DNA of 64,000 nt from Desulfofarcimen acetoxidans DSM 771. Lineage in GTDB: Bacteria; Bacillota; Desulfotomaculia; Desulfotomaculales; Desulfofarciminaceae. This document shows, one piece after another, positions 7,956 to 18,420 of this stretch (position 1 is the stretch's first letter; the number at the start of each line of letters is the position of its first letter). The stretch covers positions 1,240,001-1,304,000 of the forward strand of contig NC_013216.1 of assembly GCF_000024205.1 (NCBI RefSeq), read 5' to 3'. Both the position numbers and the translations under genes were made by a program. Below the pieces are notes generated by a model. It saw only the letters and a list, made by a program, of their open reading frames with translations. It had not been told where the DNA came from and did not search any database.

Positions 7956-8540
7956 ATGCAAATTAATATTGATTTCAATAAAGAAGATTTGATTCAATAC
8001 CTGATGCAGCATTTAATTAAACATTTTTCTCTGGAACCTTTGCAAGAAAAGTTCCAGTTAGCTGAATATTGCATGGATATTCTCGCCAGACACCGGAAAT
8101 CCAAAGATTTAGTGGTGTTTTCAGTCCTCAAAGAAGCTGCCGGTGAAGAAGCAATATGCAATGTAATAAAGCAAAGAGAATTAATATCTTATTATTTATT
8201 GAACAAAAGGTTGAAAATTGTACAAGAGGTAAAGAGTATTAACCCTGAGACATTGCGTAATTTACTGAATGCTGCCAATGGGGTAGAAGCAGTAATTATA
8301 GCAGAAAGCTTCCCGGAAAACATACAGGATCAATTTCCTTGGCCATGGTTGCAGTGCTATACATATGCTTTTTCTTCTCTAATCAACCAGACATCTGCTG
8401 CTGATTTATCTATCAGAATGAACTTTTCTTTTAATGAGGTCATCCTTACCAGTAGTACCGAGAGTTTTGGTGAAAAGGATCTGTCGGAGAATGAGTTGCT
8501 CAATCAGTATATTAAGCAAAACTATATCTATGCACGTTAA
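7956..8540 (+). CDS. Hypothetical protein, 194 residues
   Basis: I do not recognise a family. The frame has an ATG preceded by GGGGTG and lies between two terminators, so it is a single-gene unit. The protein is soluble, rich in helix-forming residues, has no signal peptide, membrane segment or obvious motif, and contains only a few scattered cysteines. Its flanks (codY terminator and a shared terminator with clpP) give no functional clue. Codon use resembles the neighbours, so it is probably a real gene. Confidence 0.7.
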   Translation: MQINIDFNKEDLIQYLMQHLIKHFSLEPLQEKFQLAEYCMDILARHRKSKDLVVFSVLKEAAGEEAICNVIKQRELISYYLLNKRLKIVQEVKSINPETLRNLLNAANGVEAVIIAESFPENIQDQFPWPWLQCYTYAFSSLINQTSAADLSIRMNFSFNEVILTSSTESFGEKDLSENELLNQYIKQNYIYAR

Positions 8541-8613: not shown

Positions 8614-9198
8614 TTATTTTCTGGTAACTATTTGATCAATAATGCCGTATTCCTTAGCGTCCTCTGCTGACATAAAGAAATCTCGCTCACTATCTCTGGT
8701 TATTTTATCCAAAGGTTGTTTGGTGTGTTTAGATAGTAATTTATTTAATATCTCCTTCATGCGCAATATTTCTTTAGCATGAATACCGATATCAGTGGCC
8801 TGTCCTTGCATACCGCCTGACGGCTGGTGAATCATTATTCTGGCATAGGGAAGAGCAAATCTTTTACCAGGTGCCCCGGCAGCTAACAGGAAAGAACCCA
8901 TACTGGCGGCTTGCCCCAAACAAATTGTAGATACAGGCGGTTTAATGTATTGCATAGTATCATAAATGGCCATACCTGCTGTAACAACCCCGCCCGGTGA
9001 ATTAATATACAGGTGAATATCCTTTTCCGGATCTTCAGCCTCCAAAAATAAAAGCTGAGCAATAATTAAGTTAGCAGTATAATCCTCAATAGGACCGCCG
9101 ATGAAAATAATTCTGTCCTTGAGCAAACGTGAGTATATATCATAAGATCTTTCACCGCGGTTAGTTTGCTCAACTACAATCGGAACCAGAGTAGACAA
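8614..9198 (-). CDS. clpP: ATP-dependent Clp protease proteolytic subunit ClpP
   Basis: Serine protease barrel of the Clp system. It has 194 residues with the complete catalytic triad Ser99 (GQAASMG), His124 (MIHQPSGG) and Asp173 (RDSERD), and the conserved INSPGG loop. It is not next to tig or clpX here. Instead it is the last gene of a minus-strand run that starts with metal-cluster assembly genes, 25 bases after the His-rich NifX-type gene, so it may be co-transcribed with them. The start is ATG after GGGAGGG. Confidence 0.96.
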
Positions 9199-9223
9199 AA
9201 GTTTCCCTCCCTTGAAATATCAC

Positions 9224-9748
9224 TTAGTGGCCGCAACCGCCACCGCATCCGCCTTTTTGGGAATGATCATGATTATGTTTGTGGTCATGGCCTTCTTTAT
9301 GGCCGTGGTCGTGGCTGTGATGATCATGCGGGTGAGAATGTTTTTCATCACCGTGACTATGCTCATGACTGTGGCCGTGTCCGTGCCCGTGATCATGATC
9401 ATGATCACCATGATGATGGTTGCAAACTACATTTTTAGAGGTTAATTCGCCCCTTGCATAAGTTTCAGCAATGGTCATGATGTCTCCGGAAGCCCCGGTA
9501 ATAACTTTCAAGCCTGCTTGTTCCAGTGCTTGCAGAGCATACGGGCCAATACCGCCCAGAATAACCACTTCTACGCTATTGTCTTTCATTAAGCCGGCCA
9601 GACCTTCGTGGTTATGTGCTAACTGGGCAGCGGAAACAGGGGTAGCGGTTTTTACTTTTTGGTTTTCCATTTCTAGAATAATAAATTCTTTGCTGCGCCC
9701 AAAATGCTGGTTGACTTGACCGTTATCATTTGGTATAGCTAATTTCAT
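9224..9748 (-). CDS. NifX/MTH1175-type cofactor-binding protein with long His-rich tail
   Basis: Residues 1-105 form a dinitrogenase iron-molybdenum cofactor (NifX/NifB C-terminal, MTH1175-like) domain: MKLAIPND, QVNQHFGRSKEF, ILGGIGPYALQALEQAG and ISTNG-equivalent GDIMTIAETYARGEL. A tail of about 65 residues follows with roughly 26 histidines in HxHxH patterns, ending in Cys/Gly-rich GGCGGGCGH. Such tails bind Ni, Zn or Cu in metallochaperones (HypB, SlyD, CooJ types). The ATG at 9748 is chosen because an AAAGGGTGA ribosome site lies just upstream, and an in-frame GTG three codons earlier overlaps that site. Metal identity is unknown. Confidence 0.85.
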   Translation of the reverse strand: MKLAIPNDNGQVNQHFGRSKEFIILEMENQKVKTATPVSAAQLAHNHEGLAGLMKDNSVEVVILGGIGPYALQALEQAGLKVITGASGDIMTIAETYARGELTSKNVVCNHHHGDHDHDHGHGHGHSHEHSHGDEKHSHPHDHHSHDHGHKEGHDHKHNHDHSQKGGCGGGCGH

Positions 9749-9836
9749 AAAAATCACCCTTTGTAATATATTATTATATAATAGAAATTATACATAGTAA
9801 CAGATAAAAAGTATAGTTAAGTTTTTCTTATTAATG

Positions 9837-10670
9837 TTAATTTTTTAGCAATGGAGTTATATCATCTAAAAGCTGTTCATATTTCTCAATATCACCCTGG
9901 TCGCATAAAGCGCTTAGCTTGGGATCCAGAGGCAATACCTTGAGCAAGGGGATAGCGTTTTGTTGGGCTGCTTTTTGTGCTGTACTTTCACCGAATATGT
10001 TGAAATGGTCACCGCAATGAGGGCAAACAATACCGCTCATATTTTCAATTAAGCCTATAATCGGGACTTCCTCCATTTTAGCCATTTTAATTGCCTTGCG
10101 GACAACCATATTAGCCAGTTCCTGTGGAGAGGTAACTATGATAATGCCGTCTATGGGCAGAGACTGCATGGCAGTGAGCGGTATATCACCGGTTCCGGGA
10201 GGCATGTCTACTATTAAGTAATCTAAATTGCCCCAGGCAACATCACTCCAGAATTGTTTGACCGCTCCTGCCAGAATCGGCCCCCGCCAAATAACCGGGT
10301 CGTCCTCATTGTCCAAAAGCAGGTTAAGCGACATTATTTTTATATTGAGTTTTTTGCTCCAGATAGGCATTAAAGCTTTTCCGTCAGATACCGGCCGGTC
10401 ACTTATACCAAACATTTTTGGAATACTGGGGCCGGTAATGTCAGCATCTAAAATACCTACTTTATATCCTTGTTTAGCAAGGCTGACCGCCACGAGGCTT
10501 GTTACCGAAGATTTACCGACACCGCCTTTGCCGCTCATTACCGCTACTACACGTTTGATATTGTTTGATGGATTTTGCGGTAATTTTTGGGGTTTGGAGC
10601 AAGTGGTAGAATCACAGGAGCCGCTGTCTTTCTCAGAGCATGACTGGCAGTCAGGGTTTTGCTTAGCCAT
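9837..10670 (-). CDS. Mrp/NBP35-family Fe-S carrier ATPase
   Basis: P-loop scaffold ATPase for iron-sulfur cluster transfer. The deviant Walker A is SGKGGVGKSS near residue 43, and IVDMPPGTGD and the FNIFGE segment are Mrp signatures. The N-terminus is Cys-rich (CQSC, then two more Cys before the P-loop), and CPHCG sits near the C-terminal third, giving possible cluster ligands at both ends. The ATG at 10670 follows a GGGGGGAATTT ribosome site, so the upstream codons of the open frame are not used. It lies in the NifX/MinD directon, as in ORP-type clusters of Desulfovibrio. Confidence 0.93.
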   Translation of the reverse strand: MAKQNPDCQSCSEKDSGSCDSTTCSKPQKLPQNPSNNIKRVVAVMSGKGGVGKSSVTSLVAVSLAKQGYKVGILDADITGPSIPKMFGISDRPVSDGKALMPIWSKKLNIKIMSLNLLLDNEDDPVIWRGPILAGAVKQFWSDVAWGNLDYLIVDMPPGTGDIPLTAMQSLPIDGIIIVTSPQELANMVVRKAIKMAKMEEVPIIGLIENMSGIVCPHCGDHFNIFGESTAQKAAQQNAIPLLKVLPLDPKLSALCDQGDIEKYEQLLDDITPLLKN

Positions 10671-10763
10671 TTTAAATTCCCCCCATCGTCTAAGTGTTAC
10701 TATTATCTGCCAAGCTACATAAAACATGATATTTCATATATGAACTCATGTCAATAATATTTT

Positions 10764-11624
10764 TTATGTTGAGATTTGTCTGTATATTAGATTATACATG
10801 GCATTAATTTGCTGTGAAACATTGAGTTGAGCCAGTTCAATTACAGGTCTTCCGTTAAGCATAGCTTTTGTAACAGAAGGATCAAAAGAAATTTTACCTA
10901 CTACCTGTATATCTTCCTCAGCGCAATATTCTTCTATAGTGCGGGTGTTTTTCTCATCAAGATCGTATTTATTGATACAGACCGCTGTTTTAACCCCAAA
11001 ATGTTTGCATAGGCCAACAACTCTTTTTAAGTCATGAATGCCCGAAAGCGTGGGCTCAGTTACTATCAGAGCCAAATCAATACCGGAAAGAGAGGAGATT
11101 ACCGGGCAACCGATTCCTGGAGGACCGTCAGTTATAATTATTTCTAAATTTTTTTCTTTAGCTGCTTCACGAGCGTTTTTTCTTACTTCTGCTACCAGTT
11201 TTCCGGAGTTATCTTCGGCAATGCCCAGCTTGGCGTGTACCATTGGACCATATCTGGTATTGGAGATGAACCAGTGTCCACATACATTATCCCGAAGGCT
11301 TATTGCTTGTTCCGGACAGATATAAAAGCAAAAAGCGCATCCCTCGCAGAGAAACGGATTTACCATACCCTCAGATATTGCATCGAAGTGGCAAAGCTCT
11401 TGACATAAATTGCAGCCGGTACATTTATCTTTATCTATTGTTGCTTTGGGCAGGCCAAAAAATTCATGTTCTTCTTTAATTTCAGGATTGAGCAGCAGAT
11501 GCAGGTTGGCTGCATCTACGTCGCAATCAACTAAAACCACGGGAGCGGCCAAGGCGGCGAAAGAACCGGCAATACTGGTTTTACCGGTTCCACCTTTACC
11601 GCTTATTATAAGCAGTTCTTTCAA
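10764..11624 (-). CDS. MinD-superfamily ATPase with inserted ferredoxin domain (second of a pair)
   Basis: The 286-residue protein has a deviant Walker A (ISGKGGTGKTS near residue 7) and, between about residues 60 and 115, an inserted 2[4Fe-4S] ferredoxin domain (CTGCNLCQELC, CEGCAFCFYIC). The remainder of the ATPase fold follows (IITDGPPGIGCPVISSLSG). Such proteins occur in pairs next to NifX-type and Mrp genes in anaerobes and are inferred to assemble or deliver a metal cluster with ATP. Its start overlaps the stop of the upstream homologue by four bases, so the two are translationally coupled. Confidence 0.92.
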   Translation of the reverse strand: MKELLIISGKGGTGKTSIAGSFAALAAPVVLVDCDVDAANLHLLLNPEIKEEHEFFGLPKATIDKDKCTGCNLCQELCHFDAISEGMVNPFLCEGCAFCFYICPEQAISLRDNVCGHWFISNTRYGPMVHAKLGIAEDNSGKLVAEVRKNAREAAKEKNLEIIITDGPPGIGCPVISSLSGIDLALIVTEPTLSGIHDLKRVVGLCKHFGVKTAVCINKYDLDEKNTRTIEEYCAEEDIQVVGKISFDPSVTKAMLNGRPVIELAQLNVSQQINAMYNLIYRQIST

Positions 11625-12478
11625 GATTGAACCATCCTTTCAATTTCAAAATATACATTTTGAAACTTTTCGATGTACTCCGGCATCTCGACCACAATAG
11701 GTGTTCCTTTGGCATACAATGAAGCAATTTTTCTATCAAAGGGTATCTGCATGAGCAGAGGAATATTTTCTCTTGTACAGTATCTCAGCACATCGTCATT
11801 GCCAATATCTGCACGATTCACAATTACTCCGCAGGGAACACCGATTTCGCGAAGCATTTCAACAGATAGCTTTAAATCATTGAGTCCAAACGGAGTTGGT
11901 TCCGTTACCAAAATACAAAAATCAGTATCTTTAACTGAAGTTATGACCGGGCAGGAAGTTCCCGGGGGTGCGTCAATGATGGTAGTCTTTTTAGGACTGA
12001 TTTTGGCTTTGACAGCTTTTATTAAAGGGGGGCTCATTGCTTCCCCTATATTCAATTTTCCGTTACTAAAGTCCATATTTTGAGATTTACCGCTTTCAAT
12101 GAGACCAATTTCTTTATCTGTCTGTGTAATGGCCTTTTCCGGACACTGGTACCAACAGCTGCCGCAGGAGTGGCACAACTCGCCAAAAATTAAAACTGTC
12201 TTCTCCAGAACAGCCAGAACATTAAATGCGCATATATCACTGCAATTTTGGCAATAAGTGCATTTGTCGTAATCTATCATTGGTATAGGTCTATGCACTT
12301 TTTCTGTAGTTGCTATAGCAGGTTTTAAAAATATGTGTGCGTTGGGTTCTTCAACATCGCAGTCCAGAAACAGCACAGGCCTAATCCTGTCTAAAGCCAG
12401 GGCTAAAGATGTGGAAACAGTTGTTTTTCCTGTACCGCCCTTGCCGCTGGCTACTGAAATAATCATAATATCACTCAC
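11621..12478 (-). CDS. MinD-superfamily ATPase with inserted ferredoxin domain (first of a pair)
   Basis: Paralogue of the downstream gene: 285 residues, Walker A SGKGGTGKTT near residue 10, inserted cluster-binding cysteines CTYCQNCSDIC and CHSCGSCWYQC, then IIDAPPGTSCPVI. The two copies probably form a heterodimeric ATPase. It begins at an ATG after GGTGAGTGAT and follows the smaller NifX-type gene. The arrangement matches the ATPase pair beside the Desulfovibrio ORP gene; the role in cluster assembly is inferred from that family. Confidence 0.92.
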   Translation of the reverse strand: MSDIMIISVASGKGGTGKTTVSTSLALALDRIRPVLFLDCDVEEPNAHIFLKPAIATTEKVHRPIPMIDYDKCTYCQNCSDICAFNVLAVLEKTVLIFGELCHSCGSCWYQCPEKAITQTDKEIGLIESGKSQNMDFSNGKLNIGEAMSPPLIKAVKAKISPKKTTIIDAPPGTSCPVITSVKDTDFCILVTEPTPFGLNDLKLSVEMLREIGVPCGVIVNRADIGNDDVLRYCTRENIPLLMQIPFDRKIASLYAKGTPIVVEMPEYIEKFQNVYFEIERMVQS

Positions 12479-12542: not shown

Positions 12543-12908
12543 TTACTTCAGACCAAAGTGGGAATCTACGGAAGGTTGGTTTGTTTTGGTTAAAGCACCT
12601 TTTTTATATAAATCAATAGATTCCTGCACAGTACCTGTTATACCTGAATATATGTCTATTTTAGCTGCATTAAGGGTTTCTACTGCGTTTGGACCAACAT
12701 TTCCTACCAGTACGACATCGATTTTTTTGTTGGCCAGAGCCTGTGCAGTTTTTATTCCCGCTCCTCCTGCCCCGCTTGTTCCGGGATTGGCTATAGCTTC
12801 AATACTGCCGGTTTGCTGGTCATAAATTACAAAGTACTCACATCTGCCGAATCGTGGATTTACCGGGGAATTCAATTCTTGACCTTCAGCTGATACAGCA
12901 ATTTTCAT
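12543..12908 (-). CDS. NifX/MTH1175-type dinitrogenase iron-molybdenum cofactor family protein
   Basis: Small single-domain protein of 121 residues (MKIAVSAEGQ, SPVNPRFGRCEYFVIYD, VLVGNVGPNAVETLNAAKI). It belongs to the same family as the N-terminal domain of the His-rich protein in this directon but lacks the tail. Members such as ORP and MTH1175 bind or are suspected to bind Mo/Cu/Fe sulfide clusters. Its single Cys lies in GRCEYF. It starts at an ATG after GGAGGCG, 18 bases after the zinc-ribbon gene. Confidence 0.92.
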   Translation of the reverse strand: MKIAVSAEGQELNSPVNPRFGRCEYFVIYDQQTGSIEAIANPGTSGAGGAGIKTAQALANKKIDVVLVGNVGPNAVETLNAAKIDIYSGITGTVQESIDLYKKGALTKTNQPSVDSHFGLK

Positions 12909-12926: not shown

Positions 12927-13250
12927 CTAAATATTTTGGTTACTTGTACCTGTATTGTTAATTTGGTTGTTGCTGCCTGCATTATAACGACAGAATCCTT
13001 TGCCCGCTCCCTGGCCTCTTCCGCCGCCGAAACCATTGTTTCCTCCGCGACCACAACCGTTCTTACCCTGATTCTGACCTCCGCCTCTACTGAAAGAGCC
13101 TCCCTGTCCGGTGATCTGAGCGTTTCCTGAACTATGGACTCGCATCACCCGGCTGCTGCATTGGGGGCAGGATATTTGCCAGCCTTTCTGACCGTTGCAC
13201 AAAGCTACAGTAAACTTGTGCCCGCATTGAGTACATATAAACTCTCTCAT
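12927..13250 (-). CDS. Zinc-ribbon protein with Gly/Asn/Gln-rich tail
   Basis: First gene of the minus-strand directon. The N-terminal 40 residues form a zinc ribbon (CTQCGHKF and CPQCSSRV) like small proteins found beside NifX/ORP genes. From about residue 50 the sequence is a low-complexity Gly/Arg/Asn/Gln tail with two further Cys (NGCGRGG, GFCRYN). The 107-residue frame starts at an ATG with AGGGGTGTT upstream. Its function is unknown; context suggests metal handling or regulation of the ATPase/NifX group. Confidence 0.8.
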   Translation of the reverse strand: MREFICTQCGHKFTVALCNGQKGWQISCPQCSSRVMRVHSSGNAQITGQGGSFSRGGGQNQGKNGCGRGGNNGFGGGRGQGAGKGFCRYNAGSNNQINNTGTSNQNI

Positions 13251-16128: not shown

Positions 16129-16599
16129 ATGAATATAAGAAAAGGAATGCGCCAAACGCCGCCTTGCTCTGGCGGTACCATATACTCTGTTCGTTCCGGT
16201 GATACTTTATCAAGTATTGCCCGTCGATTTAATACGACTGTAGATGCAATCATGAGAGCAAATCCCGGGATTGAACCCAATAACCTGCAAATTGGGCAAA
16301 GAATCTGTATTCCTGGTTCGGGATACGGTCCTGGTTCGGGATACGGTCCTGGTCCTGGATACGGTCCTGGTCCTGGATATGGACCTGGTCCTGGGTATGG
16401 GCCTGGTTCGGGATACGGACCTGGTGCAGGTTCCGGGCAATGCCCTAGAGGAACGTTTCCTTATACCATCAGAAGCGGTGATACTTATTATAGTCTGGCC
16501 GACAGATTTAATACTACGGTTAGAGCAATCAGGCAGGCTAATCCCGGAATAAACCCCAGAGAGCTCTATGTCGGTCAAAATATCTGTATTCCTAGGTAA
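16129..16599 (+). CDS. Two-LysM protein with GYGPG repeat linker
   Basis: The 156-residue protein has an N-terminal LysM (YSVRSGDTLSSIARRF near residue 19) and a C-terminal LysM (YTIRSGDTYYSLADRF near 110), each ending in ICIP. They are joined by about 40 residues of repeated GYGPG units encoded by near-identical 18-base repeats. No signal peptide is seen. The start ATG follows GGGGGGTGG. The sequence CATATTATA 30 bases upstream resembles a sigma-K -10 box, which would suit a spore-coat gene, but no matching -35 is clear. Paralogue of the divergent three-LysM gene. Confidence 0.88.
   Translation: MNIRKGMRQTPPCSGGTIYSVRSGDTLSSIARRFNTTVDAIMRANPGIEPNNLQIGQRICIPGSGYGPGSGYGPGPGYGPGPGYGPGPGYGPGSGYGPGAGSGQCPRGTFPYTIRSGDTYYSLADRFNTTVRAIRQANPGINPRELYVGQNICIPR
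16312..16440 (+). repeat. Tandem 18-base repeats coding for GYGPG(P/S) units
   Basis: About seven copies of a unit reading GGATACGGTCCTGGT with small changes (C/T and A/G third positions, GPG or GSG) lie within the LysM gene. They encode a flexible Gly/Pro/Tyr linker and are likely to vary in copy number between strains. Confidence 0.85.
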
Positions 16600-16667: not shown

Positions 16668-16890
16668 CACCCGTCCGACAAACGGGTGGCAGTGTCACAG
16701 GATTCAACTGCTAGGCCATAGGCTCTCGCCTATGTTCCGGGTGGTCTCCTCTAAAAGAGTTCCCCGCCACTGCTTAAAGCGAGCGTACTACCCGGAGAAG
16801 GTGTTACCTCCGCCTGGGTTCTGACTTGCGGCAACAGCCTTTCGCTGCGTGTACTGTGCCGCCCGCAAAATTTATAGCAAAGGGATTAAC
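16668..16890 (-). ncRNA. Probable omega-RNA (reRNA) scaffold of TnpB
   Basis: On the minus strand downstream of and overlapping the tnpB end lies a non-coding stretch dense in hairpins, for example CATAGGC/GCCTATG with a GAGA loop and CACCCGT/ACGGGTG near the very end. TnpB elements carry their guide RNA scaffold at exactly this place, with the guide taken from sequence just outside the element. Here that flank is the AAAAAACTACTTG of the LysM terminator. Assignment rests on position and structure. Confidence 0.65.
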
Positions 16891-17771
16891 CTATATCTAA
16901 CACATTTTTCCGGTGAATCTGCCATGAAACCAGGCTATTCACCTTCTTCCTTTTCGTGATTTTTTTAATCTTGGCCAGCACAGACTTTTTAACTGCTGAC
17001 CATTGTTTCCAATTTGTCATTTGTTTAAATTCAGGTTTCTTTTTAACCAGTTTATCAAGCAACATCTTGGGTATCTTCTCATGATCAAAGCCCAAGCCAC
17101 GCCGGGCTATGACATAGCCTGCCGCTTCGTGAACAGCTATGCCGTACATGTGCTGGTATTTTAGGATGCCTATGACCGAAGTAAAAGCCGGTTTTACCTT
17201 TAATATCGGCACTCCCTCACGGGCAGCACACCGGTCAACTGCTTTTAGAAACTTCAACCAGACAAAACTGTGACTCATTCGGTTAAACTTGGCCGTTACG
17301 GACTTGTCATTTTTAAACTTCAAGTCCTCTACCGCCAGGGCGTAACCTTTTTCTTTAGCCTGGAGGATCACTTTCTTAGCCATTTCGCAGGTCCGGTTAT
17401 CTCTCCGGTTTCTTCTGGCATAAGTCCATTCGCCTTGACCCAGCCATTCACTGCCCCGGTATTGCCCCAGACAGTCTACCTGGGTTACGCCTAATCCGTC
17501 CGGGTTGGTGTCTACACCAAACGCACCCTTATGGTTATATGGCATCGGAACTTCTTCTTCAATACTCACATGGACGTAATATTTACCGTCTCTGCGGAGG
17601 ATTTCTACCTGATAGGCACTGCCTGTTTTAAGATAATCCAAAACCATTTGCCGGTAGTTGACATCCGTCCAGCAGTCTTTTAAATGCCCAACGAACTGCG
17701 GCACAGTAACGATCCATGAGGTTATCAATGTATTCTTTCTGTTTAGGTGTCAGTTCCGGGATTATCCCCAT
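16886..17771 (-). pseudogene. tnpB: tnpB (RNA-guided nuclease family), internally deleted and frameshifted
   Basis: The original start is an ATG at 17771 inside the end of the transposase gene (MGIIPELTPKQKEYIDNL), a normal TnpB N-terminus. That frame stops at 17628 after about 47 codons. Homology then resumes in a second frame (from about 17690 to 16886) with YLKTGSAYQVEI, RuvC-I GVDTN, RuvC-II ALAVEDL and a C-terminus PAFTSVIG...VHEAAGYVIARRG. The two parts total under 300 codons, about 100 fewer than a usual TnpB, so an internal deletion plus frameshift is inferred. The C-terminal part lacks the usual zinc ribbon and the DxNAA RuvC-III motif, as in a known TnpB-related subgroup. Confidence 0.8.
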
Positions 17772-18420
17772 CGCCGTTGTCTTCACTGGCAGTCACCTCG
17801 CTTTCAATGACCTTTGACAGCTTTTTTGCTACTCTGCCGCCACGTTTTCCATATATACGAGCAGAAAATGACGTTGTAACAGCAATTAAATCTTCTACCA
17901 ACTCTTGCTGTTCATCGACGTCTTTTTTTTCTATTACTACAATATGCCCGCCAAAGTCGCTAATGTATTTCTCTAAGTAGGCATAACCGAACCGTGCTAA
18001 ACGGTCTTTATGCTCAATAATTACTAAGGCGTTATTAGTCTCCTTTACAGCCTCAAGTAACTTTTGTAGACCTTTACGGTTTTCATTTAAACCACTGGCA
18101 ATATCACGAAAAACAGCCTGAATAGCATATTTGTTATTTGATGCATATTCAGTAAGCCTTCCTATTTGTCGATCCAGATTCCCGGCATCAGCCTGTTTTT
18201 GCGTAGATACCCTGGCGTAGAGAAATACGGTATTTTGAATTCGGCTATATTTTTTGCCCTCAAAGGATTCTACTTGGGATATTTTATAGCGGCGATGGCC
18301 AGTAGGAGTTCTTTCTGGAACTAATATCTTTTTCTTTTCCCAAACACGTAAAGTATTAATACTAACCCCTAAATATTTAGCTGCTTTGCCAATACTTATA
18401 TGGTTTTCCATCCTAATCAC
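17743..18420 (-). CDS. tnpA: IS607-type serine recombinase transposase TnpA
   Basis: The 225-residue protein has a MerR-like helix-turn-helix at the N-terminus (SIGKAAKYLGVSINTLRVWE, TGHRRY) and a small serine-recombinase domain (LYARVSTQKQADAGNLDRQ with the catalytic Ser; IIEHKDRLARFG). This DNA-binding-first order defines IS607 transposases. The frame is intact, so the transposase could still be active although its tnpB is not. Its last 29 bases overlap the tnpB start. No selenium link to the adjacent tRNA-Sec is implied. Confidence 0.93.
   Translation of the reverse strand: MIRMENHISIGKAAKYLGVSINTLRVWEKKKILVPERTPTGHRRYKISQVESFEGKKYSRIQNTVFLYARVSTQKQADAGNLDRQIGRLTEYASNNKYAIQAVFRDIASGLNENRKGLQKLLEAVKETNNALVIIEHKDRLARFGYAYLEKYISDFGGHIVVIEKKDVDEQQELVEDLIAVTTSFSARIYGKRGGRVAKKLSKVIESEVTASEDNGDGDNPGTDT

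Follow-up and report, generated by a model that had tools for sequence, protein, structure and literature searches.

What would a NifX-type protein do with 26 histidines at its C-terminal end, and which metals would they serve? The question is raised by a gene of the sulfate reducer Desulfofarcimen acetoxidans DSM 771, whose genome of 4,545,624 bases forms one contig, and it is addressed here in a window of 64,000 nucleotides (NC_013216.1, positions 1,240,001 to 1,304,000), to which all coordinates below refer unless a locus is named. In the original prediction the tailed protein could be a nickel or zinc buffer, linked to the CODH and ACS of this organism, a combination not seen described before. 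We put the probability at about 0.55 that it is a transition-metal-binding tail on an Mrp-partner protein of the NifX/ORP/IssA type, where it would buffer metal and supply it for the assembly of metalloclusters.

A Nitro_FeMo-Co domain with a histidine-rich tail

The gene lies on the minus strand at 9748-9224 and encodes 174 amino acids; the range first assigned to it, 9224-9440, spans the tail only. Its start is the ATG at 9748, which is preceded by a ribosome-binding site (AAAGGGTG), an alternative GTG at 9757 being less likely. Pfam PF02579 (Nitro_FeMo-Co) covers residues 8-97 with an E-value of 4e-20 and a score of 72.4 bits against a cut-off of 26.3. With the curated cut-off passed and the family fold present, the protein is a member of the Nitro_FeMo-Co/NifX-ORP family (PF02579, IPR003731). 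The Pfam match, alignment, AlphaFold2 and Foldseek support a globular domain of residues 1-108 (9425..9748, minus strand), after which comes a tail of residues 109-174 (9424-9227) with Cys109 at its base. This tail, CNHHHGDHDHDHGHGHGHSHEHSHGDEKHSHPHDHHSHDHGHKEGHDHKHNHDHSQKGGCGGGCGH, comprises 66 residues with 26 His, 13 Gly, 8 Asp and 3 Cys, contains 19 overlapping HxH motifs and ends in GGCGGGCGH, so that the fusion of a NifX domain to a tail of about 26 histidines is confirmed as predicted. It has a pI of 6.4, a net charge of -5.9 at pH 7.2, no aromatic residues and one proline.

In an AlphaFold2 model built with a 62-sequence alignment, pLDDT is about 95 across the domain and about 48 across the tail, which is predicted to be disordered. 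Foldseek matched the domain to PH0822 (2yx6), TM1816 (1o13), MJ0327, MTH1175, ORP (2wfb), NifX bound to NifEN (9ian) and NafY, and no match to the tail sequence was found among solved structures. TM1816 (1o13/1t3v) and PH0822 (2yx6) are the nearest solved domains in both sequence and fold. It is worth noting that TM1816 of Thermotoga ends in HDHHHHEHH, like a small His tail, although this stretch is short and its tail, unlike that of the window protein, has no Cys. Identity with NifX proper, the nitrogenase cofactor carrier, was rejected, no NifX model being among the NCBIfam matches; nor were nif genes found among the window neighbours read.

Given its composition, the chance of such a tail is about 1e-24. 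Its His codons are mixed (15 CAT and 11 CAC) and Tandem Repeats Finder reports minimal arrays only, so the tail is not the product of simple triplet slippage, and chance is ruled out as its origin as well. The Met/Val-rich open frames that run opposite the tail on the plus strand (9166-9445) mirror its His codons and are not genes. Close by, a 194-aa protein without a Pfam match is encoded at 7956-8540 (plus strand), between codY and a ClpP-type gene at 8614-9198 (minus strand).

Tails are common to the family

Scanning 84,980 species genomes with an alignment of the domain without its tail yielded 80 loci, and a second set of 80 relatives of the same order was searched for orthologues. At nearly all loci of the scan a Cys directly behind the domain leads into a stretch of His, Cys and Gly residues, save for L088, which is unreadable, and L057, whose tail (CSCGG) has no His. 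The orthologues found among the 80 relatives carry a Cys/His-rich stretch at the C-terminal end. Throughout the alignment of 62 sequences, His15 (9706-9704, minus strand), Gly17, Phe22, the three glycines of GGxG, Gly85 and Cys109 are invariant. Because His15 and Cys109 are absent from the search motifs, their invariance is not built in; His47 (9610-9608, minus strand) is near-invariant, with a conservation that is partly built into the retrieval motif. Since some of the records derive from metagenome bins, individual organism names may be wrong (e.g. the 'Actinobacteria' bin L035).

The usual tail of the relatives is a Cys/His stretch of about 15-40 residues, whose composition is kept while its length varies. 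Among about 140 relatives examined in all for tail length, the tail in the window is the longest, with 26 His against 14 in the next and a median of 5; the nearest orthologue, 77% identical, has 8. We therefore regard the window protein as an extreme, His-dominated form of a presumably metal-binding tail that the family has in common, and not as a nickel-specific invention. Uniqueness of the fusion was rejected, since tails are family-wide, and IssA is a known NifX-family protein with a disordered storage tail (PMC5524996). The open literature searched yielded no paper that describes a NifX tail rich in His or a fusion of NifX with SlyD.

Fusions to SlyD-like and SseB domains

Gut Clostridia have homologues in which the NifX domain and a Cys/His linker run on, in one chain, into an FKBP domain (L085, L093, L095, L100, L108, L110, L112 and L113). 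The fused FKBP aligns over its full length, insert region included, to SlyD structures, and the fusion occurs in 29 of 400 genomes of one gut clostridial family. At L086 (7992-8867) and L089, the NifX domain and Cys/His linker continue into an SseB N-terminal domain, as tested for L086. The C/H tails of SlyD bind Ni, Zn and Co, and in E. coli and Helicobacter SlyD proteins make contact with IscS/IscU/SufS (PMC10653786); the fusion thus fits a function in metal and iron-sulfur handling, and by itself does not single out nickel. The tails of SlyD, HypB and CooJ are likewise disordered, terminal, His/Cys-rich, metal-binding segments. However, the window protein has neither the insert-in-flap FKBP domain of SlyD, which is present only in the fused gut homologues, nor, unlike HypB and CooJ, a GTPase or CooJ domain. 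Neither the Cys that is invariant across the family nor the fusion to SlyD appears to have been described in the open papers searched, and both seem to us of greater interest than one long tail.

A putative operon with an Mrp/NBP35-type ATPase

The tailed gene is the last of six minus-strand genes that form a putative operon. An FmdB-like zinc ribbon with a Gly-rich end comes first (12927..13250; TIGR02605, E 5e-7, slightly under the cut-off), with a promoter-like site of 11/12 matches ahead of it (13320-13292, minus strand). It is followed by a second NifX/ORP-type protein of 121 aa without a His tail (12543..12908; PF02579, E 4e-25), a MinD-type ATPase with ferredoxin motifs (11621..12478; PF10609/PF01656 and Fer4), a further, Orp3/Orp4-like MinD-type ATPase with inserted 4Fe-4S ferredoxin motifs (10764..11624; PF01656 and Fer4), and, directly upstream of the tailed gene, an Mrp/NBP35-type iron-sulfur carrier ATPase (9837..10727; PF10609, E 6e-94), whose start may be an internal ATG.

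This arrangement resembles the ORP/MrpORP cluster of Desulfovibrio, in which an Mrp/NBP35 with a Di-Nase domain, two MinD-ferredoxin ATPases (Orp3/4) and ORP-type proteins are likewise found together. MrpORP (Orp9, DVU2109) is one chain, whereas the Mrp and NifX domains of the window are encoded by two adjacent genes, which score 332.9 and 63.8 bits against the MrpORP model NF041136 of NCBIfam (cut-off 450 bits). The NTPase half of MrpORP is the best NCBIfam match of the Mrp/NBP35 gene, under that model's whole-protein cut-off. Both domains of MrpORP bind Fe-S clusters, and the ligands proposed in its Di-Nase domain are the C/H motifs CXHFGHCE, at the start, and CDH, at the end (PMC6345978). 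In the tailed protein the former reads NQHFGRSKE, with both Cys missing, and CNH (Cys109-X-His) stands in place of the latter; the long His tail is an addition. Identity with MrpORP was therefore rejected, on the separate genes and the divergent motifs. Lacking the two Cys of CXHFGHCE, the tailed protein may hold no Fe-S cluster at all.

Mrp, MinD and NifX-like genes adjoin the tailed gene in several relatives too, but many Desulfotomaculales orthologues are not adjacent to Mrp, indicating that a partnership with Mrp is not universal. This, the missing Cys of CXHFGHCE and the partly built-in conservation of His47 speak against the reading we favour. The same-strand neighbours counted were DsrC (5), DUF134 (5), FmdB-type ribbons (3), CxxCxxCC proteins (3) and CbiQ (2). 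At two loci (L056:437-8402 and L062:192-10165), an Mrp/MinD/NifX/DUF134 cluster adjoins genes for a cbiQO-type Co/Ni ECF transporter and a cbiJ-like gene; these transporter assignments were read from the sequence, with family models run only for the CbiQ beside the tailed gene. Across the relatives, sulfur, iron-sulfur and cobalt/nickel contexts all occur. The DsrC sulfur-carrier gene lies upstream of the tailed NifX gene at L046, L050, L052, L054 and L059, which belong to several Desulfotomaculales.

Nickel and the other explanations

If the tail stored nickel and delivered it to CODH/ACS in place of CooJ or HypB, several features of the host would fall into place, and yet we consider such a nickel-specific protein unlikely. 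The host genome has four full-length CODHs and no HypB above the cut-off, the window contains CODH and ACS genes, and CooJ, with 16 C-terminal His and four bound Ni (PMC6006190), is a precedent for the His-rich C-terminus. However, the tailed gene is not in a CODH operon as a CooJ would be: the CODH and ACS genes form a separate cluster at 46.5-50.8 kb, about 36 kb away. The two ATPases that had been named CooC stand beside CODH/ACS in that cluster; their NCBIfam matches are to general MinD-type models only, so the name CooC rests on position. CODH is common among the 80 relatives of the same order (65 over the cut-off), where the His number of the tail correlates weakly with CODH copy number (rho 0.26, p 0.09); against this, Pelotomaculum-type relatives without CODH keep their tails, and the sister genome has three CODHs yet an 8-His tail. 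TM1816, too, has its terminal His stretch. As to whether tails occur mostly in genomes without nickel enzymes, 47 distant tailed genomes include about 12 with CODH, 14 with HypB and about 12 with a clear LarA, together about half. Within one gut clostridial family, the tailed gene showed no dependence on HypB or CODH across 120 genomes (OR 1.34, p 0.46), nor on CODH across 400 (OR 1.30, p 0.32). HypB or CODH is present in 7 of 8 SlyD-fused genomes (nominal p 0.026), but for CODH the trend did not hold among the 29 fusions of the 400 genomes (11/29 vs 107/371, p 0.30), and a tie between the fusion and CODH was rejected. All of these tests are uncorrected for kinship and bin completeness. The cbiQO-type transporter genes beside two of the clusters would suit nickel. 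Given the independence in the co-occurrence tests, nickel may be among the ligands, but the tailed family does not seem to follow it. Of the proposal as a whole, the metal-binding storage or delivery tail is upheld by composition, the invariant Cys at its base and the SlyD-like fusions, whereas the link to nickel and CODH is not supported, given a family-wide tail, many carriers without CODH or HypB, and an Mrp/ORP-type context.

The closest known anatomy is that of IssA (Pyrococcus furiosus PF2025), a NifX-family iron-sulfur storage protein with a disordered tail of about 70 residues (PMC5524996). Both proteins have one Nitro_FeMo-Co domain (IPR003731) and are of similar length (174 vs 179 aa, with tails of 66 vs 70), the host is sulfidogenic, DsrC genes adjoin the tailed gene in five relatives, and a role as metal store for cluster assembly is proposed for both. 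The IssA tail, however, is cationic and rich in Arg, aromatic residues, Gly and Pro (pI 10.7), with the single Cys of the protein, whereas the window tail is made of His, Gly and Asp, with three Cys framing the His run. Its low pI and negative charge make electrostatic binding of thioferrate unexpected, so that a thioferrate storage particle in a sulfide-producing bacterium seems improbable, and IssA membership was rejected on the chemistry of the tail, its long disorder notwithstanding. A buffer or detoxifier of zinc or toxic metals, with no part in cluster assembly, is a little harder still to credit: HxH/Cys tails do bind Zn and Co besides Ni, the putative operon includes an FmdB-like zinc ribbon and gene presence does not seem to follow nickel enzymes, but metal-resistance transporters and regulators (MerR, ArsR, P-type ATPase) are absent from the most frequent neighbour families, the steady companions being Mrp and MinD. 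That the long tail arose by neutral lengthening of a short C/H motif, itself conserved, and that its extra His have no function, would fit the occurrence of the long form in the host genome only, the sister having 8 His; the mixed His codons, the regular HxH spacing and the lack of DNA repeats make it very improbable. The same anatomy as IssA with a different tail chemistry thus leads us to favour a NifX-type partner of Mrp whose tail would chelate metal.

A proposed role beside the Mrp carrier

On the favoured reading of a metal-chelating tail, the protein would work beside the Mrp/NBP35 iron-sulfur carrier, and its folded domain would hold either a metal or an iron-sulfur species close to the HFG motif with its invariant His15. 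From Cys109 on, the tail would be a flexible His/Cys chelator that gathers divalent transition metal ions, the candidates being Fe(II), Zn, Ni and Co. By keeping these ions close to the domain and to the partner ATPases, the tail would serve as buffer and donor for cluster assembly, and its presumed growth in the host from the usual 15-40 to 66 residues would provide a higher capacity.

Anaerobes very commonly encode NifX/ORP-type proteins to which no role has been assigned, and the invariant base Cys together with the SlyD-like fusion offers a testable hint that the class handles transition metals beside the Mrp carrier. One may speculate, as a rather unlikely extension, that NifX/ORP proteins with an invariant Cys at the base of a His/Cys tail make up a widespread class, not yet described, that donates metal to Mrp/NBP35-linked cluster assembly in anaerobes, loading Ni, Co or Zn besides iron-sulfur species and joined in one chain to a SlyD chaperone in gut Clostridia. 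The tail protein of the window would be a handy high-capacity model for identifying the metal. If that metal were nickel, the gap left by the missing HypB in a CODH-rich host would be filled.

Two further features of the window may be recorded. A LysM-domain protein at 16129-16599 (plus strand) has a repeated GPGYGP linker between its two LysM motifs, and an IS607-type-looking element at 16886-18420 (minus strand) consists of an HTH and serine recombinase gene followed by a TnpB-like gene.
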